A DNA stretch of 64,000 nucleotides, from assembly GCF_900302455.1 (NCBI RefSeq), contig NZ_ONZG01000007.1, positions 124,001-188,000 on the forward strand, in the 5' to 3' direction. The notes under the pieces are model-generated. The model was not told where the DNA came from. It did no database searches and worked only from the letters and a program-made list of their open reading frames with translations. Positions 1 to 11,966 of this stretch are shown in pieces. How positions within the stretch are numbered: position 1 is the first letter of the stretch; every line of letters begins with the position of its first letter. This DNA comes from Falsiruegeria mediterranea M17. GTDB taxonomy: Bacteria; Pseudomonadota; Alphaproteobacteria; Rhodobacterales; Rhodobacteraceae. A program made the translations under genes and the position numbers.

Positions 1-1
1 A

Positions 2-2866
2 ACCCTTGGACTACCGGTAGACGTTGACCTAACTCTCAAAACGGACGTAACCGGCGTGTTAGGACACCCTGATTTTCGCCTCCACTACGAGTGGCACAGG
101 CAAGGACAGCGGGAAATGCCACGACGAACTGGAGCATTTCTCGAAACCGCTCGTGGGATACGCAGGATCCCGCTCTGGATGAAGCGTGCACTGGACCTTG
201 CGGACGGATTTGATCCCAACCGTCCGCTTGAAGAGCATTGGTCGGCATTGGCAGAATTCCGGCGTGCGCTGGAGCCCGATGAGATCATTCCAGACAGTCT
301 GCCCGAAAACCAGCGGATGGCCGGGTTGGCCATGACGGCGTTTCTTCGCGGATTGCAGGTTCGCATTGCCAACCGGTTTTCAATTTCACCAGATCGCACT
401 TTAGGGCACTTTGACATTATCCCCTACTCATCCGACAGCCTTGAGAACAATGCCATTTCCGAAGACGATATCTCCGAAAGCGACGCCGAACTGGAAGGTG
501 AACCGCTCGCGGCATTTCAGTACAGAGTACAAGCCATCGGGGTTCGCCCAGCCTATCAACTCGGGAACAATTCCTACCTCGTAATTGACCGATCCAGCAC
601 CCCGGTCCTTGAGGAAATGGTACGCGTACAGAATTCTGATCGAAACGAACGCAAGGCGTTCATCGAGAATCCGCGTACGTTCATCACAGAGGCTGTCAGT
701 CGGCATCTAAAGGAAAACGGGGCTCTCGACGACCTCGACGAGGCCGAACAGCAGGAAGTGATTGAGGCAACTGCTGGCCCCGCGTTCATCGAAAGCGTTG
801 AATACTCAGAGCGTGTGACTGGCGTTGTCATTTATGAGAAACCAACAGGCGACCGAGAGGGTAGCGGCACAGCCTGGCTTCCCGAAGTATTCCCGGAACA
901 CATAGTTGACGCCATTGCCGAAATGCCCACTGCAGATCTCAAAACTCTGCGCGACCGAATGGCTGCAAGCCTCGAGACCAGCAACCAACCCATTGCTGCT
1001 ATTGCGGGCCAAGAGGTAGAGGTGACGGCGGCCAGGCTATCAGCCGTATCTGGCGAGCTAAATCGACGTGAGGCAGAGGATTCCGATCAAGAAATATCTT
1101 CTGATATTGAGGGTGAAGAGGACCTACATCCTGGTCCAATCATTCTCGATACACTGGACAATTTCGAAGAATTGTCGTGGCATGCCAAGCTGCATCCAAG
1201 GCATTCCGCCTTACCGATTTCTATCCCCGAAACCATCACGACTAAGCTTCGTCAGCACCAAATCGAGAGTTTCAACTGGGCAGCACAAGCTTGGTCAAGT
1301 GGACTACCCGGGATACTCAACGCAGATGAACAAGGGCTCGGCAAAACACTACAATCGATAGCTTTCCTGAACTGGCTTCAGGCTCACATGCAATCATCCG
1401 ACGCTGAAGATCGAGGCCCGATCCTGATCGTTGCCCCCACATCTCTACTCCGAAACTGGGAAGAAGAAGTGGAAAGGCACGTGGCACCTCGAAAGTTCGG
1501 CCACCTCGTTCGACTTTATGGCTCGTCTCTCTCCGGACACAAGCAGTCCGGGGCGCAAGGGACCGAAACCGGCAGTGGAATTCCCCTACTGGATTTCGAG
1601 TGGTTAACCGAAGCGATCGAGGAAGCGCGGGCTCACCGTTACTGGTTCCTAACCACCTATACTACGCTGGCAAACTATCAGCACTCTCTCGGTCGCATTC
1701 GCTTCTCAGCGCTTGTCATGGATGAGATCCAGAACATAAAGAATAAGGACACCATTGCCTCAAAAGCCGCTGAGGCAATGAACGCCGATTTTCGGATTGG
1801 TCTTACGGGTACCCCGATCGAAAACTCCGCGATGGACCTATGGACAATCATGGATCGCATTGCCCCCGGAGCGCTCGGTTCGGGGACGGATTTCAAATCA
1901 AGGTACAGAGATCCCGACGAAAGCAACATGGCCGAGTTGCACGACAGAGTTTTCAAGGGGCATGGTGGGCATCCCCCCTTGGGCCTTCGACGCCTGAAGG
2001 ATGAAGTTGCCCGTGATCTACCCGCTAAGCAACGACTGCTTCATCCCCGGATCATGCCCAAGGTCCAATCTCAGGTATATGACGAAGCACGAGAGAAGCT
2101 TGCTGAAGGGAGCCGTGGAGCAGCATTGAAAATGTTGCACCACATCCGCTCAGTGTCAGTCCACCCAGGGCTTGCCAAGACGGTTCACCCCGAAGACTTT
2201 GTGAAAATGAGCGCGCGCTTATCGGCAACTATGGATATCTTGAAAGGAATTGCCGGAAGAGGCGAAAAGGTACTGGTGTTCATTGAACATCGCGAGATGC
2301 AATTCCGCTTTGCTGAACTTGTACGGCACTTCTTCGGACTTGAACAAATAGACATCATTAACGGTGACACCCCAATCCCGAAACGCCAAGCAATTGTGAA
2401 CCGTTTCCAGAGCAACTTGGATCACGACACTGGCTTCGATCTTCTTGTCCTCGGACCGAAAGCTGCGGGAACAGGCCTTACGTTAACAGCGGCAACACAC
2501 GTCATTCATCTTTCTCGTTGGTGGAACCCGGCCGTGGAAGAACAGTGCAACGATCGAATCCATCGAATTGGTCAGACGCACCCTGTAGAAGTCCATGTAC
2601 CCTTGGCCATACACCCAGAATACGGCGAGCATTCATTTGACTGCCTGCTCCAAAGTCTCATGCAAAAAAAGCGAAAACTGGCTTCACAAGCACTATGGCC
2701 CATGGGCGACACAAGGGGCGACCTTTCCGGGCTCCAATCAGGATTGGAAGCATTACGAGACGCTCGAACCGGGAACGTTATCTCGACCAGCATGCAGGCA
2801 ATGTTTCAACGGGATGGTCTCTCGCAGCCTACTCAAAACGAACAAGGAGCCTACTTGATGTTGTGA
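2..2866 (+). CDS. SNF2-family helicase/ATPase, 5' end outside window
   Basis: This is an ATP-driven nucleic-acid translocase of the Swi2/Snf2 group. Seen: a Walker A motif GLGKT near 1334-1348, a DEIQ Walker B box at 1721-1732 in place of DEAH, the TGTPIEN motif near 1805-1826, and a C-terminal helicase lobe ending in RIHRIGQ near 2555-2575. About 400 residues before the helicase have no domain I recognise. The frame is open to the first bases of the window with no stop, so the GTG at 56 is probably not the real start and the gene runs in from the left. A 297-bp gap follows before the next gene. SNF2 proteins of this sort occur in several anti-phage systems (ZorD of Zorya, DISARM DrmD), but no partner gene of those systems is visible here. 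The family call is firm; the system is not assigned. Confidence 0.9.
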   Translation, partial: TLGLPVDVDLTLKTDVTGVLGHPDFRLHYEWHRQGQREMPRRTGAFLETARGIRRIPLWMKRALDLADGFDPNRPLEEHWSALAEFRRALEPDEIIPDSLPENQRMAGLAMTAFLRGLQVRIANRFSISPDRTLGHFDIIPYSSDSLENNAISEDDISESDAELEGEPLAAFQYRVQAIGVRPAYQLGNNSYLVIDRSSTPVLEEMVRVQNSDRNERKAFIENPRTFITEAVSRHLKENGALDDLDEAEQQEVIEATAGPAFIESVEYSERVTGVVIYEKPTGDREGSGTAWLPEVFPEHIVDAIAEMPTADLKTLRDRMAASLETSNQPIAAIAGQEVEVTAARLSAVSGELNRREAEDSDQEISSDIEGEEDLHPGPIILDTLDNFEELSWHAKLHPRHSALPISIPETITTKLRQHQIESFNWAAQAWSSGLPGILNADEQGLGKTLQSIAFLNWLQAHMQSSDAEDRGPILIVAPTSLLRNWEEEVERHVAPRKFGHLVRLYGSSLSGHKQSGAQGTETGSGIPLLDFEWLTEAIEEARAHRYWFLTTYTTLANYQHSLGRIRFSALVMDEIQNIKNKDTIASKAAEAMNADFRIGLTGTPIENSAMDLWTIMDRIAPGALGSGTDFKSRYRDPDESNMAELHDRVFKGHGGHPPLGLRRLKDEVARDLPAKQRLLHPRIMPKVQSQVYDEAREKLAEGSRGAALKMLHHIRSVSVHPGLAKTVHPEDFVKMSARLSATMDILKGIAGRGEKVLVFIEHREMQFRFAELVRHFFGLEQIDIINGDTPIPKRQAIVNRFQSNLDHDTGFDLLVLGPKAAGTGLTLTAATHVIHLSRWWNPAVEEQCNDRIHRIGQTHPVEVHVPLAIHPEYGEHSFDCLLQSLMQKKRKLASQALWPMGDTRGDLSGLQSGLEALRDARTGNVISTSMQAMFQRDGLSQPTQNEQGAYLML

Positions 2867-3163
2867 AGAATTCTGCCTGCCTTCCGAACAACCAGATGAA
2901 CGAAACTCTTGATAACACTCCCTACATAGATGGCTGGAAGCGGAAAGTTCGCTGTTGATAGAGCTGCCCAAGCCCTGTTGTTTCGCTCGTAATGTCGACT
3001 GTTAGAGACGAAAATATTTTCTTTGGATCTCCATTTCAGGTGAAACTGATCAAGGCAACCAAGGGACGCGCCGCAAACACCATGAATATCAAAGACTTTT
3101 CCTAAACTCCGTGACAACGTATCAAGGATGGAGCATTGTGCGACGAACTGACGATACCAGGCG
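2867..3163. other. Intergenic gap, no gene seen
   Basis: About 300 bases between the helicase gene and the next ORF. Only short ORFs without recognisable similarity or convincing ribosome binding sites are present. It probably holds the promoter of the following gene pair; I see no clear hairpin terminator. Confidence 0.4.
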
Positions 3164-3859
3164 ATGACAATTCAAACTGCTGAAACCCTGTTGTCCGAAC
3201 AAGAAATTCTGTCTTGGTGGTCCTCGGAACGTGGACGCGTAGACAGGGAATGTCGCGCGGCGGCAGAGCGTTTCATCAAGAAAGCCTGCGATCAGATAGA
3301 AGAGCTGACCCTCAAACAGGTGCTACTCCCGTCCGAGCAGAGGAAGCATATTGAGCGCGGACTTCAATCGGACATCAACATGTTCAACCGTCGCATGGAG
3401 CGCTCTTTGCAAGACGCCCTGTCGGATTCAATCGAGAAAATCGAAGGACTTGAACAGTTTTCGAGCAACTCCCTTCGGGATAACGCCACTTTGGCAGCAG
3501 GCGGCGCGGTCGGCTTTGGCGCCATTGCGATCGCGGCTGCGGCGCCTGTCATCGCTACGACGACAACGGCGACAACCTTTCTTGGTTTTTTTGCAACGGG
3601 CACGTTGGTGACCTTTTCGTGGCCTGTTTTCGCGATTGTCGGCGTTACCGCGGGAGCGGCGGCCCTAACTTCTCCGACACTGGTTTCAAAGGGGCGAAGG
3701 GGGATTCAGGCGCGTTTCAAGGCGCATATCAAGAAAACTGTGGAACAGAGCTTGATGTCTTCGGGTGGGAAAGAACCAACCGGAGGAACGCGGACGATCT
3801 TGTTCCACGAACTGGACAGGGCGAGAGATCTTCGCCTTGAACGCCTCATAACAAAATAG
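3164..3859 (+). CDS. Membrane protein with Ala/Gly-rich hydrophobic hairpin, unknown function
   Basis: A 231-residue protein I do not recognise. Residues 1-105 are charged and predicted helical, with a WW pair near residue 18 and many Arg/Lys. Residues about 109-170 form a long hydrophobic stretch rich in Ala, Gly and Thr, long enough for two membrane helices (an AAGGAVGFGAIAIAAAAP segment, then a second after FSWP). The last 60 residues are basic and polar. There is no signal peptide, so the soluble parts are expected in the cytoplasm. The next gene begins 7 bp after its stop, so the two are probably co-transcribed. The layout resembles membrane-active effectors or dynamin-associated partners, but no such family can be assigned. 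The reading frame is well supported by codon use and tight packing. Confidence 0.7.
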   Translation: MTIQTAETLLSEQEILSWWSSERGRVDRECRAAAERFIKKACDQIEELTLKQVLLPSEQRKHIERGLQSDINMFNRRMERSLQDALSDSIEKIEGLEQFSSNSLRDNATLAAGGAVGFGAIAIAAAAPVIATTTTATTFLGFFATGTLVTFSWPVFAIVGVTAGAAALTSPTLVSKGRRGIQARFKAHIKKTVEQSLMSSGGKEPTGGTRTILFHELDRARDLRLERLITK

Positions 3860-3866
3860 GTTCTTC

Positions 3867-4862
3867 ATGCAGCACATCCTCGCGCGCATCCCCCCAGAAT
3901 TGATCGAAAAAGTCGCCGAAGGCTCGGCAGAGCGCATCGGCATGGTGGTCAGGGACGCCACGACAAAGAAAATCATGGCGCATCTTCAGGAAACGAGCGC
4001 AACTCAATCGATCGTAAAGACGGTGATGGAACAAGCCGGCGGCGTATTGCAAAGCACGATCCCCGATCCACTGGCTGCCGCCTCGGGGTTGGTGACCGTA
4101 GTCCAGAACGAGCAGATCAAGGGCCGCATTGATGCGCTGCAAACGATGATGGGGGGTATGCAAGCCCTGCAAACCGCGACCATGGTGTCTTCGGTCGTCG
4201 GTCTCGGCGTGACCGCCGCCAGCACCGCGCTCATTCTGTCGCGTCTCAAGAAGATCAATCAAAAGCTCTCGCATATCGAAGACAAGATTGATGCCGCACG
4301 CGCACTTCACGAGGATTGGGATCTCCATCGGACGCTTAGATCGGTCGAGGTTCAATTGGAACGTTTGGCCGAGGCCGAATTGAGTGGCAAACCGAACGCG
4401 GTGCTGTCGACAACGGAACATGAACTGCACAAGGGGTTCGGTGAACTGCATCGCGGCACGATCCACATTCTGAACCGTGAGCAGGTAGACCCAGATTTCC
4501 TTACCTTGCTACTTTCGGCCCTTGCTCTTTCGGGTTCCGCGCAGTTCCAGGCCCTGTTGCGGCTGGACGAGCTTCCGCGGGCGCATACACGCGCAACCGT
4601 GCAGGCAAGTCATCTTCGAGAAATCGCTTTCGCCATGCCCCAGGACAAGCTTGCCGAAAAATTCGGACAACAAGCTGGCGCATCTGAAAATGTCGACGCC
4701 CTCGTCGGAGAAATACGCCTGCGTATAGCGTCACTACCGGGTTTGGCCGAAACACTGACGCTTCAGCGTATTCGCGGCCCGGAGTATCTCGAGGTCGCAC
4801 AAGACGAAGAGGTCGAACCGCTTTTGGTCCTTGCGGCCCCAGGCACGGGCGATAGCCGCTGA
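3867..4862 (+). CDS. Membrane/coiled-coil protein, unknown function
   Basis: A 331-residue protein paired with the gene 7 bp upstream. Residues 1-100 are amphipathic helix-like sequence. One hydrophobic segment (about 103-125, with VSSVVGLGVTAASTALIL) could cross the membrane once. It is followed at once by a coiled-coil-like stretch (about 126-170, with KKINQKLSHIEDKID) and a soluble helical C-terminal domain of about 150 residues. There are no catalytic motifs and no signal peptide. One-helix proteins with a following coiled coil often act as membrane-tethered oligomers, but that is inference. Its stop is followed within about 50 bp by a broken IS3-family end, so sequence downstream has been rearranged. 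Confidence 0.7.
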   Translation: MQHILARIPPELIEKVAEGSAERIGMVVRDATTKKIMAHLQETSATQSIVKTVMEQAGGVLQSTIPDPLAAASGLVTVVQNEQIKGRIDALQTMMGGMQALQTATMVSSVVGLGVTAASTALILSRLKKINQKLSHIEDKIDAARALHEDWDLHRTLRSVEVQLERLAEAELSGKPNAVLSTTEHELHKGFGELHRGTIHILNREQVDPDFLTLLLSALALSGSAQFQALLRLDELPRAHTRATVQASHLREIAFAMPQDKLAEKFGQQAGASENVDALVGEIRLRIASLPGLAETLTLQRIRGPEYLEVAQDEEVEPLLVLAAPGTGDSR

Positions 4863-4913
4863 TCCGGGCAACCCGTGCCAAGCATCCTCGGCGGATACTT
4901 GCGTTGGGCTGAG

Positions 4914-5014
4914 CCTGCCGCAACTTCGTGACAATCTCTTCGGGCTTCAGTCGCTTGTTTGCCATTCTTGGTCCTCCGTTTCCTAAACATAGCGGTGGAC
5001 CAGTTCAGTTGGGG
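4914..5014 (-). mobile_element. IS3-family remnant A: terminal inverted repeat and first codons of OrfA
   Basis: Read on the minus strand, an ATG at 4965 encodes MANKRLKPEEIVTKLRQ, the characteristic start of OrfA from IS3-family (IS407-like) elements. The similarity stops after about 17 residues (near 4914). Upstream of the ATG is AGGACC spacing and, at 4994-5014, an inverted-repeat-like end containing CTGAACTGGTCCACC on the minus strand. Only the 5' end of the element survives and the rest towards lower coordinates is gone. The long ORF continuing through 4501 in this frame is antisense to the preceding gene and not real. Its outer end faces the two-gene block at 5223-7626. Confidence 0.75.
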
Positions 5015-5222
5015 AGGCTCAAAGGAAGGAACGTAAGATCAAACCGTGGGATCGCACACCTACACGAGGTGTCAGATTTAGCTTTGAAGTCTCTTGCGGG
5101 CGGGGAGGCTATGGGTCGCACAGCCAAATACCAGCCGGACCCAATGAAAAGGGGCGGTCCAGACTTGCGCGACGACGCCTGATTGAATAGTGGTCAAACG
5201 AGGGGCAGCTGACGGGAATTTC

Positions 5223-5999
5223 ATGCAGCGTAGGCTTTCAATTGCCTTGGTGGTTACCCTTCTGCCTACGGCGTTCCTTTGGCTCTGGAAGTTGACCTAT
5301 GGCTTTTCCGACTGGGCCGCTATCTGGCTGCTCTTTATAGCAGCCATGATATTTCTGGGGAATTGGTCGATCACCATTGATCGTTGGAAGGCCGAACGCG
5401 GAATATTTCTAAGGTCTGGGTCGTGGCTTGCAGGGTGGCTCACCGGACGGACGGGAGCATTTCTCTCCTCAACGCTGTTGGTTTTTCTGCTCGTGCCGGC
5501 GTTGGCCTGGAATGCGTTGACGATGTCAGGAGCTGAGGTTGTCGTTTCTCTTGCCCTGGTTTTCGCATCGGCCTGGCTTTTCCTTTGGATGCAGAGTTTT
5601 CTGATCAGGCATTTCATCCCTCCCTTCGACAGGATTGTCGCAACCGGACCGAGCGCATGGATGGTTGGATTGCCTTTCTCGATCATCCTCTTTTTCGTCA
5701 CATGGTATGCCCAGAGCATTCCTGCAGAAATGCTCACTGCGGACTTTTCCGTTACGCTGCGGTCCAGGTTGGGCGAACTTCCGGAAAGACGCGGCTGGAT
5801 TTCTGAGATGCTTGCCTTTGGCTACGCCTTTGAAGCATCAAAAATGTGGCTGGTGGTGCAGATGAGGGACTATCCCCTTATCGCGATTTTGTTCAATCTG
5901 GACATGGCGTTGTTCGGCTTTTTTGCTGCAAGGGCAAGCGTGGTCATGACGCATTTTGTTGAAACACATTACCACGGAACGCCGAATGCCCCAGTCTGA
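5223..5999 (+). CDS. Polytopic membrane protein, unknown function
   Basis: A 258-residue protein with about five or six hydrophobic segments (near residues 5-25, 32-52, 75-97, 103-127, 141-160 and a weaker one near 225-245). I chose ATG 5223 because GGGAA lies just upstream; an in-frame GTG at 5190 would add 11 residues. There are no motifs that name a transporter or enzyme family. Its stop lies 14 bp inside the next gene, so the two are translationally coupled and probably form one functional unit. Both lie between two IS3-family ends, which marks the pair as acquired DNA. Confidence 0.7.
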   Translation: MQRRLSIALVVTLLPTAFLWLWKLTYGFSDWAAIWLLFIAAMIFLGNWSITIDRWKAERGIFLRSGSWLAGWLTGRTGAFLSSTLLVFLLVPALAWNALTMSGAEVVVSLALVFASAWLFLWMQSFLIRHFIPPFDRIVATGPSAWMVGLPFSIILFFVTWYAQSIPAEMLTADFSVTLRSRLGELPERRGWISEMLAFGYAFEASKMWLVVQMRDYPLIAILFNLDMALFGFFAARASVVMTHFVETHYHGTPNAPV

Positions 6000-7626
6000 A
6001 GAAGCCCCAAAAGACAACAGCAATACCGAAGGCCACAAAAGACCAAATCTGTCACGCTGGTTCTGGGGAACCATTGTTCTTTTGCTTGTGACTACGGTCA
6101 GCCTTGAGCTTTTTGCAGCCTGGCAAGCTGGTCGACAAGGCGTTGAAAATGGCAGTGGCAGCTCTGTCGATCAGACAGGGAAGAACGCTAAGCAGGTGGA
6201 ACAGTGGTTCAATACGGCGAATGAGGAAGCAAGAAAGGTCAGGGAGCAGATACCTGGCCTCTTGGAAGAGGCCTATGCGCCAGTCTATGCAGGCATCCCG
6301 AAGTATATGGATTTTCACTATTCTCTGACAGGCGAGTGGCTGGAATTGGGCGCGGCTGCGATAGGGAACCTGGGAGGCGGTCTGGAGGAACATCTCTTCG
6401 ACGGTTTTGATACGCGTTTAGGCGCTGTGTCAGAACACCTCGCGCTGGAATTTGACCAAATATTTCAGAAGGCGCTGGATGAGGCTATGGCCGCTGAGCC
6501 GGGCGGGGCAGAGGCATTCGGGCCTGTGGCAACCAGAGCCTTGCGAGATTCCCAAAATCGGATGAAGAAAACGACGGGAACCGTCGGCGTCGTCCTGGTG
6601 GGGGGGGCGACTTTGAAGGTATTCACCACAGCGTTCGCGAAGAAGCTTGCCATAAAGCTCGCAGCAAAGGTGGGAACAAAAACCGGAATGAAATGGGCTG
6701 CCACTGTCACTGGCGGCGCGGCTTCTTCTGCTGCCTGTTCATGGACAGGGCCGGGGGCTGTGGCCTGTGCCGTGGTCGGAGCTGCTATCACATGGGTTGT
6801 CACGGACGTGGCAATGATAAATCTGGATGAATATGTTACGCGCGACGATTTCGAGCGTGATTTGCGCGCGCTTATCGACGATCACAAAAAAGAGACCCAA
6901 CATGCGATGGAGCAAATGCTGGCCAGCAAGATCCTTGCTGTCGAAACTGAGCGCAAGGTCGTCGTCAGAGACATCTCCCTGTCTGAGTTGAAGGATGCGG
7001 ATCGATTGATGGTTTGCGAGGCGGCGGCCAGCATTCTTGGTCGCTACGTTGAAATTCGTGGCAATCTGCAAGCGCGCTCGTCGACGAATATCGCGTCCTT
7101 CCAAGCCGATTTGAGGGCGCAGGAGACCAGCTATCTTCTGGCCCCCTGGATTGACACGATGAAGGCCGCAATCACCGATCAGGACCTTCGCCCCTGGATC
7201 TTCGGTCCGGTAATCTTGAATGTCGATTTTCCAGACGAGTTGCATGAAGGGCGCAAGATATGGGGTGAACTTCGTCTCGCAGAAACGGTTATTGAATTCG
7301 TCAAAACGGAAAGCGATTCGGACGGAAAATACAGCCTGAGAGCGGACGTTGGAGAGAAAATCGTTCTTGAGGGAAAGCGGCGGCTTGAACTGGAACTGGT
7401 TCAGGATCGAGGCTGGACCTCATGGAACCGGGACTTTGAGGGCATTGCCTGGCTTGATGTCTCTGAAAATTTTTCCAAAGGCTCGGGCATTGCTCCGAAA
7501 GCGGCGATCTCGCTGACTATGGCCTCGGTGAATAAAGGGGGGCCGGCTCCACGGGTTGAGGTCGTGCTGATCCCGGGCGGGGCGATATTGCCCGGTCGTG
7601 AACTGCCGAAGTTTTGCACGCAATAG
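5986..7626 (+). CDS. Large membrane-anchored protein with internal Gly/Ala hydrophobic segments, unknown function
   Basis: A 546-residue protein counted from ATG 5986 (an in-frame TTG at 5956 gives 10 more). It has a polar Lys/Asp/Asn-rich N-terminus of about 25 residues and a transmembrane helix around residues 26-48. About 130 residues of acidic helical sequence follow, then a hydrophobic region (about 190-265) with GVVLVGGATLKVF and a GGAASSAACSWTGPGAVACAV segment that look like two or three membrane helices with glycine-zipper spacing. The soluble C-terminal domain has about 280 residues. No family recognised. The gene overlaps the preceding membrane protein by 14 bp. The glycine-rich transmembrane hairpin resembles pore-forming or oligomerising segments, but this is only a resemblance. 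Confidence 0.7.
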   Translation: MPQSEEAPKDNSNTEGHKRPNLSRWFWGTIVLLLVTTVSLELFAAWQAGRQGVENGSGSSVDQTGKNAKQVEQWFNTANEEARKVREQIPGLLEEAYAPVYAGIPKYMDFHYSLTGEWLELGAAAIGNLGGGLEEHLFDGFDTRLGAVSEHLALEFDQIFQKALDEAMAAEPGGAEAFGPVATRALRDSQNRMKKTTGTVGVVLVGGATLKVFTTAFAKKLAIKLAAKVGTKTGMKWAATVTGGAASSAACSWTGPGAVACAVVGAAITWVVTDVAMINLDEYVTRDDFERDLRALIDDHKKETQHAMEQMLASKILAVETERKVVVRDISLSELKDADRLMVCEAAASILGRYVEIRGNLQARSSTNIASFQADLRAQETSYLLAPWIDTMKAAITDQDLRPWIFGPVILNVDFPDELHEGRKIWGELRLAETVIEFVKTESDSDGKYSLRADVGEKIVLEGKRRLELELVQDRGWTSWNRDFEGIAWLDVSENFSKGSGIAPKAAISLTMASVNKGGPAPRVEVVLIPGGAILPGRELPKFCTQ

Positions 7627-7638
7627 TCTTTTGAGCAG

Positions 7639-7871
7639 CCCCATTTGAGTGGTCCAAATTGAAAGTTAGTGCATGGTTGGCCTGGGCTGCTACCCTTGTT
7701 CGGACCACCCGGCTGGAGATTTTCCGGGGTTTGTGCTCAGGGCGTTTGCTGCATCTCTGAGCCATTCATCAGCGTGATCGGTGGGTTGTTCCCGATTGCG
7801 CTGTGTGGACGAACTTCGTTGTAGTCTCTACGCCACTCCTCCATTTTTGATCGGGCGTCGTCAAGGCTCAT
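7639..7871 (-). mobile_element. IS3-family remnant B: OrfB C-terminus and terminal inverted repeat
   Basis: On the minus strand 7871-7737 encodes 44 residues that include KMEEWRRDYNEVRPHSAIG and PPITLMNGS, the classic C-terminal end of IS3-family OrfB (integrase core, IS407-like), ending at TGA 7737. The rest of the transposase is missing. At 7639-7656 CCCCATTTGAGTGGTCCA resembles the end found in remnant A (CCCCAACTGAACTGGTCCA on its strand), so it is read as the element's other terminal repeat. The upstream boundary coincides with the end of the GIY-YIG gene. Confidence 0.75.
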
Positions 7872-8302
7872 TGATCAGCCAGCGCAATCACTTCCTGCTC
7901 CAGGCGAGCAATGTCCAACGCGTCTGCCAAGGGCACCCAGACTGCCTTGCAATACTCGGCGACAAATTCATTACGCAGTTTCTTCGCGATATCACCGTCG
8001 GCCTTGGTCGCGGGGTCGTTCCGCTGTCGCCACATCCTGCCGGTTTTGTACATGCGCGAGAAGTAGTGGCTGGTTGTCTCGGAACCCGTGCGATGACGCT
8101 GGTGGATCCGCTTGTAGAAGGTTTCACTCTCTGACGTCGTGGACCCGATGTAGCGGAGGTCGCCGAAATGGTCGACGAGGCCATAGATCCCCCGACAATC
8201 CCTGGGCGCCATCGCGGTCGGCTGAGGCGTAGCCTCGAGAAGTTGCTCCAAGATTTCCTTTGCATCGGGCGTGTCCGATCCGCGGCTGAGGAAATTCATC
8301 AT
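7868..8302 (-). pseudogene. GIY-YIG nuclease-like gene, probably truncated at its 3' end
   Basis: A 144-residue ORF with a GIY motif (GIYGLVDHFGDLRYIGST) near residues 38-56, followed by a conserved-looking Tyr/Arg helix (FYKRIHQRHR) as in GIY-YIG endonuclease folds. The family cuts DNA through the GIY/YIG tyrosines, an Arg and a Glu. Here the region after the core (NEFVAEYCKAVWVPL, then a leucine/glutamate helix) ends abruptly exactly where the IS3 OrfB fragment begins, sharing bases with it. The native C-terminus has therefore probably been replaced. An in-frame TGA just before the start limits the N-terminus to 8302 or 8299, and no strong ribosome binding site is seen. It could be a relic of a homing or restriction-type nuclease. 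Confidence 0.6.
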
Positions 8303-8578
8303 GTTTCAAAACCCGTGCGTCCTGCCGCGACTTTCTTGTCGCGGGAAATTCCGGGCCAAGGGAAGCTTCAATCCAACGGAAGATCAACAGCCGAAAGTGT
8401 CCATGGCGATATATTCCAGCCCCATCCCTTTCAACCTTCTCAATTTGAACTGCGATGGCACAGTACCTGTTGCACGCGACTCCACATTATGGCACCGTCA
8501 GTGGCACACGTAGAGTCCACGATGATATCGGTCGAGATTTTTCGTTTGAAATCATAAGGTTTTACGGCGAGGATGATG
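8303..8578. other. Non-coding island edge, nothing recognised
   Basis: About 275 bases between the GIY-YIG remnant and the tRNA-Asn 3' fragment. Short ORFs exist but none has a plausible start context or a protein I recognise. If this is the end of an integrated element, this stretch would be its terminal DNA, where integrase arm sites might lie; I cannot identify such sites by eye. Confidence 0.35.
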
Positions 8579-8598
8579 TCCCTACCGCCGGAGCCATA
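8579..8598 (+). repeat. 20-bp copy of the tRNA-Asn 3' end, candidate attachment site
   Basis: TCCCTACCGCCGGAGCCATA on the plus strand is identical to the last part of the intact tRNA-Asn gene plus two bases beyond its CCA (8944-8925, minus strand). Sequence to the left does not fold into the rest of a tRNA, so this is only a 3' fragment. A strong terminator follows directly, as after a genuine tRNA gene. This is the arrangement left when an integrase inserts an element into the 3' end of a plus-strand tRNA-Asn gene. The element would lie to the left and the intact tRNA gene beyond the left window edge. The assignment is inference from the repeat and the change in gene content. Confidence 0.65.
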
Positions 8599-8634
8599 AA
8601 AAGCCCTCAAGTTGTAGTGACTTGAGGGCTTTTT
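8598..8634 (+). terminator. Rho-independent terminator after the tRNA-Asn fragment
   Basis: A perfect 15-bp stem, AAAAAGCCCTCAAGT paired with ACTTGAGGGCTTTTT, around a 7-base loop. The A and T runs on either side make it usable in both directions. It directly follows the tRNA-Asn 3' fragment and may be the original terminator of that tRNA gene. Confidence 0.9.
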
Positions 8635-8926
8635 TGCTGACTTGTCAACGGCCTCTTCAGTCAAGATCATGGCCAGCACAGAGATGACTACGCTTCTATC
8701 AGCGGCCCTGTTCTTTGCTTCTTCTTAGCGGGCTCCGCAGCGCAGCCACGCACGAAACACGCCCTTTTTTCAGACCAGAGGCCATACGGCGGAAAACTCC
8801 ACACTGCTCTTGATTCAGCCCGGACCGAAGGCGGTCGGGAAGTCCAGAGAATGAAGAAATGAGCCGAAAACCCACGCCCGTGCGCAACACGCGCAATACG
8901 TTGAAATATCGTGGTATTTTGGGATA

Positions 8927-9001
8927 TGGCTCCGGCGGTAGGGATCGAACCTACGACCAATTGATTAACAGTCAACTGCTCTACCGCTGAGCTACGCCGG
9001 A
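8927..9001 (-). tRNA. tRNA-Asn (anticodon GTT)
   Basis: On the minus strand the sequence starts TCCGGCG and ends CGCCGGA-G-CCA, giving a 7-bp acceptor stem and an encoded CCA. A D-arm (AGCTCAGCGGTAGAGC), an anticodon arm with CTGTTAA and anticodon GTT, and a T-arm GTAGG-TTCGATC-CCTAC are all present. Length is 75 bases. Its 3' end points at the accessory island, and a partial copy of that 3' end lies inverted at 8579-8598. Confidence 0.97.
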
Positions 9002-9516
9002 ACGGTGCACGCCGTATAGCAACCGCATTTGGGGACGTCCAGAGGCGAAAGAAAAAAATTTGCGAGTTGAAGGCCTGTCCAAGTGAACCGCGGAAATCGA
9101 TGTCCCAAGCCGCATAAATGAGCCCCTCCTCGAGCACACAGGAAACTCGAGATTACTCTCTTTTGACCGGGTTTATTTTGGCCAAGCCCACGGTCATCGA
9201 AATCCCGCGCCCGCTGCTCCAAGTACGGCGAGCCGAACCACTTCCGAACGGAGCTTTCGCATTCTGCCGGGGCAACTCTAAGTTCTTGGCGCGGGTGCGT
9301 TCAGCGACCAGCAACACGCCTGTCACCTACAATGGATGAAGAACGAGTTGCTGCAGCAATCTGTGTCTCATCGCAGCGCACTCGGCAATTTTCGCGTTTC
9401 TTCGGCGGCTGCCCATCTTCCGAGCTGACTTTGGCCGTGGAATTTGTGTTGACTAGGTGACCGACAACCTAAAGGGTCGATGTAAGTTTCATTTAATAAA
9501 TTCAGGAAATTCAATT
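9002..9516. other. Intergenic region upstream of the repeat protein
   Basis: About 500 bases with only short, unconvincing ORFs. It must hold the promoter of the tRNA-Asn gene (reading left) and that of the FG-GAP/RTX gene (reading right). An AT-rich stretch ATTTAATAAATTC lies just before the latter's ribosome binding site. No protein remnant identified. Confidence 0.4.
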
Positions 9517-11778
9517 ATGTTAGACAATTCCGTTTTCCAACTTTCCCATCTCAACGGCACCAACGGGTTTCGCCTCGATGGGATTGATGCGCTAGACTTC
9601 AGCGGTATCTCTGTTGCCTCTGCCGGCGATGTGAATGGGGACGGGTTTGATGATATCCTCATTGGTGCGGAGAATGGCGACCCAAACGGAGAAAGTAGCG
9701 CTGGGGAAAGTTATGTGGTGTTTGGCGCGGCAACTGGATTTGGCCCTTCGCTATCGCTGGCCGATCTGGATGGCACCAACGGCTTTCGCCTCGACGGGAT
9801 CGACGCAATTGACTGGAGCGGTAGTTCTGTTGCGTCTGCCGGGGATGTAAACGGTGACGGGTTCGATGACATAATCATCGGTGCACGACTTGCTGACCCA
9901 GGCGGACAAATTAACGCGGGAGAGAGCTATGTGGTCTTTGGTGCAGCCTCTGGTTTTTCTGCCTCGTTGTCCCTGTCGGATCTGGATGGCAGCAACGGCT
10001 TTCGTCTCGATGGGGTCGATTACGGTGATTTCAGTGGTAAATCTGTTGCGTCTGCCGGGGATGTGAATGGCGACGGCTTTGATGATGTTCTTGTCGGAGC
10101 AATTGGAGCCGATCCAAACGGACAAATTAACGCGGGAGAGAGCTATGTGGTTTTTGGCACGAACGCGGGCTTTGCGCCTTCCCTGTCGTTGAGCGATTTG
10201 GATGGCAGCAACGGCTTTCGCATTTCTGGAAAAGAGGTGAATGACCGCATCGGTGACTCCGTCTCCTCTGCCGGGGATGTGAACGGCGACGGGTTTGATG
10301 ATATCCTCATTGGTGCGCCCTATGCCGACCCAAGCGGAGAAAGTAGCGCTGGGGAAAGTTATGTGGTGTTTGGCGCGGCAACTGGATTTGGCCCTTCACT
10401 ATCGCTGGCCGATCTGGATGGCAACAACGGGTTTCGCCTAGACGGGATTGATCACAATGACTTCAGCGGCCTCACGGCTGCCTCTGCCGGGGATGTGAAC
10501 GGCGACGGGTTTGATGATATCCTCATTGGTGCGTCCCATGCCGACCCAAACGGAAAAGGTAGCGCTGGGGAAAGTTATGTGGTGTTTGGCGCGGCAACTG
10601 GATTTGGCCCTTCGCTATCGCTGGCCGATTTGGATGGCCGCAACGGGTTTCGCCTAGACGGGATTGATCACAATGACTTCAGCGGCCTCACGGCTGCCTC
10701 TGCCGGGGATGTGAACGGCGACGGGTTTGATGATATCCTCATTGGTGCGTCCCATGCCGACCCAAACGGAAAAGGTAGCGCTGGGGAAAGTTATGTGGTG
10801 TTTGGCGCGGCAACTGGATTTGGCCCTTCGCTATCGCTGGCCGATTTGGATGGCCGCAACGGGTTTCGCCTAGACGGGATTGATCCGGGTGACCGCAGCG
10901 GCCTCACGGCTGCCTCTGCAGGGGATGTGAACGGCGACGGGTTTGATGATATCCTCATTGGGGCACGCTATGCTGATCCAAATGGTCAAGATCAGGCCGG
11001 AGAAAGCTATGTCGTGTTTGGCTCCGCAAACGGCTTTGGTGGGGCGACCCCCGTTCTGGGCACCGCCGCCAATGACTGGCTGACCCTGCCCGCGGACTGG
11101 CGATTGGGTCTGCGCCAAATCGACGGCGGCGATGGCACCGACATGATGTCCTTTGCCGGACTTGATGCAGGCATCTATGCCAACACCACGACCGGTCAGG
11201 CCAACAGCGGTTTCGCCAGCGCGCCTTTCGATCTCATCATGACGTCCATCGAAAACGTCTCCGGCACCAGCCACGCGGACATCTTCAACGGCTCGGACCG
11301 GGCCGAGGTCTTTCGCGGGTTGGGCGGTCAGGACACCTTCTATGGCAGCCACGCCGGGGTCGACACCTATCAGGGCGGCGGCAGCAGCGACACGCTCACT
11401 TACATTCAGTCCGGCGAAGGCGTGTCCGCCTCTCTGTTTCGGGGCCGAGGCTGGAGCGGTGACGCCCAGGGCGACCTGATCTTAGAAATCGAGAATCTGA
11501 CCGGCACCAACCACGATGATTTCCTGTGGGGCGATCATGGCGACAACAAACTGACGGGCGGCCATGGCGATGACGAGATCGTGGGCGCAGGTGGCGATGA
11601 TTACATCCTTGCCGGCCACGGCACCGATACGATCATCTATTCGGGCAACAGATCGGACTACACCATCCTCCAGAACGGCATCCGCACCGAGGTGATCGAC
11701 ACATTGGGCCGCGACGGCCACGACGTGATCGGCCACGCCGAGGTGCTGCAATTCGCCGACGGGGATTTCATTCTGTAA
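9517..11778 (+). CDS. Secreted FG-GAP repeat protein with C-terminal RTX calcium-binding repeats
   Basis: A 753-residue protein, probably exported unfolded by a type I system and folding outside the cell with calcium. I chose ATG 9517 because AGGAA lies 8 bases upstream; an in-frame GTG at 9457 lacks such a site. The N-terminal two thirds are seven 72-residue repeats of integrin-alpha/FG-GAP type, each with a D-x-N-x-D-G-x-D-D calcium loop (DVNGDGFDD) and a SYVVFG strand, so a seven-bladed beta-propeller is likely. The C-terminal third has RTX-type GGxGxD nonapeptides (LTGGHGDDEIVGAGGDDY). There is no N-terminal signal peptide, as expected for type I substrates. No type I transporter genes are adjacent. 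Likely roles are adhesion, biofilm or surface binding (inference). Confidence 0.85.
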   Translation: MLDNSVFQLSHLNGTNGFRLDGIDALDFSGISVASAGDVNGDGFDDILIGAENGDPNGESSAGESYVVFGAATGFGPSLSLADLDGTNGFRLDGIDAIDWSGSSVASAGDVNGDGFDDIIIGARLADPGGQINAGESYVVFGAASGFSASLSLSDLDGSNGFRLDGVDYGDFSGKSVASAGDVNGDGFDDVLVGAIGADPNGQINAGESYVVFGTNAGFAPSLSLSDLDGSNGFRISGKEVNDRIGDSVSSAGDVNGDGFDDILIGAPYADPSGESSAGESYVVFGAATGFGPSLSLADLDGNNGFRLDGIDHNDFSGLTAASAGDVNGDGFDDILIGASHADPNGKGSAGESYVVFGAATGFGPSLSLADLDGRNGFRLDGIDHNDFSGLTAASAGDVNGDGFDDILIGASHADPNGKGSAGESYVVFGAATGFGPSLSLADLDGRNGFRLDGIDPGDRSGLTAASAGDVNGDGFDDILIGARYADPNGQDQAGESYVVFGSANGFGGATPVLGTAANDWLTLPADWRLGLRQIDGGDGTDMMSFAGLDAGIYANTTTGQANSGFASAPFDLIMTSIENVSGTSHADIFNGSDRAEVFRGLGGQDTFYGSHAGVDTYQGGGSSDTLTYIQSGEGVSASLFRGRGWSGDAQGDLILEIENLTGTNHDDFLWGDHGDNKLTGGHGDDEIVGAGGDDYILAGHGTDTIIYSGNRSDYTILQNGIRTEVIDTLGRDGHDVIGHAEVLQFADGDFIL
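9559..11041 (+). repeat. Seven tandem 216-bp repeats inside the FG-GAP gene
   Basis: Units begin at 9559, 9775, 9991, 10207, 10423, 10639 and 10855, an exact 216-bp period, each starting at an xNGFRLDG-type codon block; the last unit is shorter. Units 5 and 6 differ at essentially only their first codon, so they duplicated or were converted recently. Units 2 to 4 are more diverged. Confidence 0.95.
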
Positions 11779-11966
11779 GGCGCAGGTCCAATCACACCTG
11801 AACACGAGGCACTGCAGCGCTCTGTGTTTCGCCGTGCGACGTTCTGCGTCGCGCTAAACGCTGACTTATGACCTTTCTGAGCTTGCAATAGTTCTGTAAG
11901 AATCGCGAAATAGAACAGCCGTTCAATTCATATTCACTTGGATCGTCACTGGGGAGGAGGCACCAC

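Follow-up and report, generated by a model that had tools for sequence, protein, structure and literature searches.

A 49.7-kb genomic island at the 3' end of a tRNA-Asn gene of Falsiruegeria mediterranea M17 with a long, putative tyrosine integrase and mainly predicted anti-phage cargo

Genomic islands that use tRNA genes share a common plan. In the islands described in excerpts of the Islander report (PMC4383910), a restored tRNA gene lies at one end, a displaced fragment of that gene at the other end, and a tyrosine integrase is encoded within. In Klebsiella pneumoniae, the asn-tDNA is a hot spot for islands such as GIE492, for which excision has been reported (excerpts of PMC4891358), and in Escherichia coli, hot spots harbor integrase-only defence islands, Zorya being named in the legend of the figure depicting them (excerpts of PMC10121019). 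The island described here follows the Islander plan, differing in an integrase that is not seen by the Pfam integrase model and in a recognisable cargo that is mainly predicted defence. With the GIE492-type islands, as far as the excerpted account goes, it has in common the tRNA-Asn hot spot, the direct repeats, the integrase at one end and the occurrence of composite islands, but the cargo is different, and while excision is reported there, the present island is known from its sequence alone. The E. coli islands combine, like ours, an integrase and defence systems with no other known mobility genes, whereas host group and target gene differ. As the standard plan, the tRNA-Asn hot spots and integrase-only defence islands are all described, this kind of island is already known and the one presented here is a further example. 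The mechanism is ordinary, and what is new is a well-delimited island.

The window, i.e. the whole stretch of 64,000 nucleotides that was analysed, corresponds to positions 124001-188000 of its own contig (C19) in the genome G000; positions on the contig carry the prefix C19 (Table 1). An earlier note, made from the letters of the window, had identified positions 8579-8598 as a tRNA-Asn 3' end on the strand opposite to a nearby intact tRNA-Asn, and had regarded it as the right end of an integrated element. The tRNA identity is borne out by a 20-mer search and by ARAGORN: with up to three mismatches, the 20-mer has only two matches in the window, one on the plus strand (8579-8598) and one on the minus strand (8925-8944), where 100 shuffles give a chance expectation of 0.00, and the minus-strand copy is the 3' end of the sole tRNA that ARAGORN finds within the window. 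Left of 8579, tRNA identity drops to background and nothing tRNA-like is found, just as the earlier note had claimed that no further tRNA parts precede the fragment. An 18-bp core occurs with zero mismatches at three sites of the genome, all on C19 (Table 1), and a fourth match, on contig C25, has two mismatches. The two plus-strand copies are 49,701 bp apart in the same orientation, have 18 bp in common (TCCCTACCGCCGGAGCCA), and diverge beyond. The left copy completes an intact tRNA-Asn gene at C19:82821-82895 (ARAGORN), and no tRNA is called at the right copy. The supposed sharing of 20 bases holds for the minus-strand copy, but only 18 bp match the plus-strand parent in its present form; the final TA belongs to the native flank, and TA also follows the minus-strand copy and the tRNA-Asn of two relatives of the same genus (G003, G001). 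Judged by these matches, the right-hand core stems from a second tRNA-Asn gene, on the plus strand, whose last 18 bp were displaced.

Table 1. Positions of the island's features; positions without prefix refer to the window.
Feature	Position	Strand	Remark
Core copy 1	C19:82878-82895	+	end of intact plus-strand tRNA-Asn
Right-hand 8.6 kb of the 49.7-kb island	1..8578	.	remainder C19:82896-124000, left of the window
ZorD, preceded by ZorA, ZorB, ZorC	1..2866, start C19:123729	+	scanned from window position 56 on
Island gene	3164..3859	+	weak PADLOC LeoBC match (E 2.9e-5)
Island gene	3867..4862	+	weak PADLOC JukB match (E 1e-9)
Putative membrane protein (by eye)	5190..5999	+	no family found
Putative membrane protein (by eye)	5956..7626	+	marginal PADLOC LeoBC match (E 0.0009)
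Last sizeable minus-strand island ORF before attR	7868..8302	-	GIY-YIG-like motif by eye; no library match
Putative right-arm integrase repeats	TGGCAC 8456-8461, 8490-8495, 8502-8507; TTGCAC 8470-8475	+	GGCAC 5-mer from attL arm
Core copy 2 (attR core, displaced 18-bp tRNA-Asn 3' end)	C19:132579-132596 = window 8579-8596	+	
Native terminator-like hairpin of the original plus-strand tRNA-Asn, now severed from the tRNA	8598..8634	+	fold; equivalents in G003/G001
Core copy 3	C19:132927-132944	-	intact tRNA-Asn of the window
Intact tRNA-Asn beyond the island, second gene of the older convergent pair	8927..9001	-	ARAGORN; G002/G003

We regard this locus, with a probability of about 0.96, as a 49.7-kb integrative genomic island that entered the plus-strand tRNA-Asn gene by recombination at its 3' end. 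The earlier note had proposed such an insertion at the 3' end of a second tRNA-Asn gene on the plus strand, and on the same contig the complete gene was indeed found, 49.7 kb further left, with a tyrosine-recombinase-like gene adjoining. What is seen in the sequence is a direct repeat of 18 bp at each end, the left copy completing the restored tRNA and the right copy being its displaced fragment in direct orientation, a tyrosine-recombinase-like gene beside the tRNA, and an uninserted site in G003. The GC content of the island is 55.2%, as compared to 60.2% on the left and 59.3% on the right. It could be argued that the fragment arose by chance or as a duplicated piece of the nearby minus-strand tRNA-Asn, without any island, as the 20-mer is identical to that copy as well, but the complete plus-strand tRNA-Asn, the integrase, the uninserted relative and the chance expectation given above leave practically no room for this. 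A chance match or tRNA relic was rejected on the basis of the 20-mer statistics, the second core and the tRNA-Asn called by ARAGORN.

When the flanks are joined at the core, the resulting order is tRNA-Asn, hairpin, 330 bp, convergent tRNA-Asn. In G003, two convergent tRNA-Asn genes lie 340 bp apart, with a hairpin directly after the first one. The left flank of this genome is 83% identical over 8.1 kb and the match stops at the same base, while the right-side match covers just the surroundings of the tRNA and one short stretch beyond. In G002, the left flank is 91% identical over 8.1 kb, exactly to the CCA end, and the right flank about 90% identical over 6.2 kb; the two tRNAs are separated by 857 bp, at whose beginning the first 96 bp of the element are matched at 79%; we infer that this spacer is what is left of a related element after loss of most of it. 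In G001, the left flank, the tRNA-Asn and the hairpin are present, and the contig ends less than 1 kb after the tRNA. The integrase profile has no match at E 0.001 in G003 and G001, and G002 has a weak 66-position match on a different contig. It follows from the flanking arrangement in G003 and G002 that the convergent tRNA-Asn pair is older than the island, and that the plus-strand tRNA originally had the hairpin behind the displaced fragment as its terminator. The intact tRNA-Asn of the window is thus a separate copy, as had been suggested, and can be further specified as the partner in a convergent pair that also exists in G002 and G003, which is why it was rejected as an island boundary. 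The comparison with relatives that the earlier note had recommended gave genomes of the same genus that keep the flanks and lack the island, G003 being uninserted and G002 almost emptied. Of the two outcomes that were to speak against the proposal, a conserved left flank next to the same fragment in relatives or the lack of a tRNA-Asn or integrase within reach on the left, neither was found: tRNA-Asn and integrase lie 49.7 kb to the left, and relatives have the flanks without the island. A separate, smaller variable spot exists on the right side, where about 2.5 kb (window 9365-11835) are missing from the otherwise matching flank of G002; ORF 9457-11778 within it encodes a 773-aa repeat protein with FG-GAP-like repeats by eye.

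A strong terminator had been claimed to follow the fragment at once. The hairpin folds strongly (window 8597-8640: -23.4 kcal/mol, z -6.7, none of 200 shuffles equally good), but a consensus terminator scan lists none after the right-hand core copy, and none at the left end of the element either. The scan probably misses the native hairpin because its T run is taken up into the A/T-extended stem. Equivalent hairpins are present directly 3' of the tRNA-Asn in G003 and G001, with 34 of 40 bases identical in G003 (read by eye). The element has its own hairpin after the restored tRNA-Asn (-23.9 kcal/mol, z -4.9).

A tyrosine recombinase gene was expected beside the plus-strand tRNA-Asn, and an uninterrupted ORF for a protein of 796 aa (C19:83016-85406) starts 120 bp after the left core. 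In searches against Pfam, NCBIfam and PADLOC, this protein has no integrase match, and a PF00589 search of the genome omits it; it has a sub-threshold match to DUF6538 (E 0.0064), and its relative in G187 matches PF00589 with E 0.0014, under the cut-off. The residues R608, K640, H712, R715, H738 and Y748 are invariant in 27 aligned integrase sequences, in an alignment that omits four of 29 loci (L061 truncated, L066 near-duplicate, L075 with in-frame stop, L084 a fragment). R, K, HxxR, H and Y are the catalytic residues of tyrosine recombinases. Among PDB sequences, a profile search gave weak matches, with the Tn1549 integrase (E 0.01) and XerH (E 0.015) as the best ones. The AlphaFold2 model has a mean pLDDT of 74, with 170 of 796 residues below 50 and most ten-residue blocks of region 361-770 at 85-96. 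With this model, Foldseek found the Tn1549 integrase as best match (E 2.4e-4), followed by Cre, XerH and lambda integrase at E 0.001-0.005; the best 50 of 101 fold matches are all tyrosine recombinases or integrases, one of them with E < 0.001. A PHROGs integrase family is matched with E 3.6e-7. On the strength of residues and predicted fold, we take the 796-aa protein as a tyrosine integrase, an assignment that treats these two features as defining and the PF00589 cut-off, which the protein does not reach, as not so. In the open-licence papers searched, nothing was found on DUF6538 in connection with an integrase.

The PHROGs match might also be seen in the light of a defective prophage or satellite in tRNA-Asn, as Rhodobacteraceae prophages use tRNA genes, tRNA-Asn included (excerpts of PMC8224337). 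However, the integrase alone matched PHROGs among ten island proteins, and phage structural domains are absent from the 30 island ORFs scanned with Pfam, which cover the small ORFs in part. A phage origin is therefore very improbable.

The integrase is part of a larger group. A search of 394 genomes of the family gave relatives at E <= 1e-10 in 54, counting the island's own genome; the weaker of these relatives are matched over part of the protein only and may belong to other subfamilies. The tRNA-Asn 3' core is present at 28 of the 29 other integrase loci (27 by exact 11-mer, L088 by a variant) and absent at L084, which is a gene fragment; a complete tRNA-Asn is found at 20 of the 29. A distance from the core to the mechanically chosen ORF start downstream of it, 11-248 bp, was computable at 26 of the 29 loci; the ORF choice failed for L075, L083 and L084, the first two of which still have the core. 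Eight loci have a core without a complete tRNA. In four of these (G208, G211, G153, G248), a same-strand core lies 9-11 kb upstream, a pattern as in tandem accretion, and another one, L082, begins at the contig end. In Aliiroseovarius lamellibrachiae, which is the sole relative from a contig scan that has the integrase, the protein is 55% identical and its gene lies 119 bp after the tRNA-Asn. A pattern search in 32 genomes revealed 13 further elements in which the core recurs past the integrase, on the same contig and strand, at 8-50 kb (in kb: G187 18.9; G448 50.2; G166 32.9; G248 19.9; G379 9.2; G208 31.1; G074 33.9; G028 24.4; G153 10.3; G387 8.2; G165 17.3; G390 36.4; G417 25.7). G016, which has spaced core copies, was left out of this number, as its integrase piece is a fragment. 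In 12 of the 13 elements, the two ends disagree at the first base of the 18-mer and thus share 17 bp. In G166, G074 and G028, the far core is followed by an apparent further left end, and their sizes therefore refer to one unit each of a tandem array. Among the matches listed, 11 genomes of the family have, in addition to a longer match, separate pieces of a tRNA-Asn 3' end of about 45-50 bp, suggesting other integrases with longer cores at the same site. The open-licence papers searched yielded nothing on tRNA-Asn islands in Rhodobacteraceae.

Mechanistically, such an integrase would bind short repeats on both arms of the element. In the attL arm, between core and integrase gene, there are four GGCAC words 10-12 bp apart, and in the attR arm GGCAC occurs three times, as compared to 0.15 expected. 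Many relatives have similar small arrays of other words, for example GTGCAC (by eye), and TGTGCCC is found among the diversified repeats. When the commonest attL-arm 5-mers of 14 elements were counted in the respective 180-bp attR arms, with overlapping words being counted repeatedly and with both arms having been inspected before the test, 34 occurrences were observed versus 6.6 expected under a first-order Markov model (maximum of 18 in 1000 runs). Taken individually, 8 of the 14 elements have p < 0.1, and in four of 14 (G166, G248, G074, G028) the attL word is missing from the attR arm. The short repeats on both arms are probable arm-type integrase sites. In the proposed mechanism, the 796-aa integrase would bind GGCAC-type repeats on both element arms, strand exchange would take place inside the core, and the element's own tRNA 3' end and own terminator would replace the displaced ones, so that the tRNA would stay functional.

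By its similarities, the recognisable cargo of the island is mainly anti-phage defence. A contiguous type I Zorya operon (C19:119245-126866) encodes, in this order, ZorA (E 3e-247), ZorB (8e-116), ZorC (3e-157) and ZorD (0), which is the ZorA-ZorB-ZorC-ZorD order of type I Zorya with no notable difference seen, and is predicted to protect from phages. The unknown membrane genes, IS remnants and SNF2 helicase that the earlier note had described left of the fragment can now be refined: the SNF2 helicase is the ZorD of this operon, and the membrane genes largely remain without identity, with weak LeoBC and JukB matches. ORF 4501-4965 on the minus strand has a start that resembles an IS3-type transposase OrfA (by eye) and has no Pfam match; it probably is an IS remnant of the kind meant in that description. 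In the region C19:87231-97816 (L090), genes for a DndH-like protein of 1839 aa (8e-59), a 501-aa protein without match and an SspF-like protein of 690 aa (2.7e-6) face the gene of a C5-cytosine methyltransferase, and the island also encodes, besides this methyltransferase, an HhH protein of the PADLOC REase_II type. A search for dndC (TIGR03183) had no match anywhere in the genome; it reached its cut-off in none of 14 control genomes, which thus do not demonstrate its sensitivity. This region may possibly be a Dnd/Ssp-type restriction module that uses a methylation mark instead of phosphorothioate. The block C19:110262-119122 comprises a WYL regulator, SbcD-like and SbcC-like proteins, a 1135-aa RNase H-helicase and a 221-aa protein, and may be a defence system that is partly known to PADLOC 2023 (MkoA-like match). 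The element of G379 has four genes of this block in common with the island (49-56% identity). In six comparator elements, chosen for fitting in 20 kb, 10 large proteins of many ORFs were scanned; all six elements have at least one PADLOC match at E <= 1e-10, and nine of the 10 proteins match, PADLOC models for methyltransferases and helicases being broad. The matches are type III methyltransferases, an MkoA-like helicase, an adenine-type methyltransferase (our reading of MTase_II), a type IV restriction enzyme with a DrmD-like helicase, and type I restriction-modification.

In the middle of the island, C19:103180-107444 encodes a 701-aa tyrosine recombinase (Pfam E 4e-13), an overlapping 466-aa gene that is recombinase-like by eye only, with no Pfam or NCBIfam match, and then a 210-aa gene. 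This set is reminiscent of the GInts multi-integrase elements, as described in excerpts of PMC5385486. An IS66 is also present in the island. It is therefore conceivable that a smaller, integrase-bearing island and one or more separately acquired defence blocks came to lie between the same two cores, with this recombinase set and the IS66 driving a nested insertion. Such a composite history is compatible with the main reading and differs from it in history only. It agrees with the fact that modules recur singly elsewhere, namely the 701/466-aa pair in G187 (39-41% identity, with the 210-aa gene at 30%) and the four WYL/SbcD/helicase genes in G379. However, there is no third core copy inside the island, and the recombinase set, which a second element in this site also has, may belong to the ordinary cargo; on balance, we rate a composite history at slightly less than an even chance. 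Two tandem islands with the 18-bp core were rejected, as they would require a third core inside.

Regardless of whether the island of 49.7 kb was acquired in one or more steps, its mobility, i.e. excision and transfer, is a prediction. A Pfam scan of 30 island ORFs revealed neither conjugation genes, relaxase and type IV secretion genes included, nor phage structural genes, and no excisionase is recognised. Because of the lack of recognised transfer genes, the island would depend on a helper or on transduction to pass from cell to cell. We lean slightly towards the view that tRNA-Asn-addressed islands with long (about 630-830 aa) integrases that Pfam misses or barely reaches, with co-diversifying arm repeats and exchangeable anti-phage modules, and with no recognised transfer genes, form a coherent class across the family, for which we know of no name.

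What began as a guess from raw sequence is now a presumably mobile island delimited by both ends, integrase, uninserted site and cargo. The naturally diverged pairs of integrases and arm sites offer a set for studying site recognition, and the 3' end of tRNA-Asn is one site to watch for the exchange of defence genes in Rhodobacteraceae.
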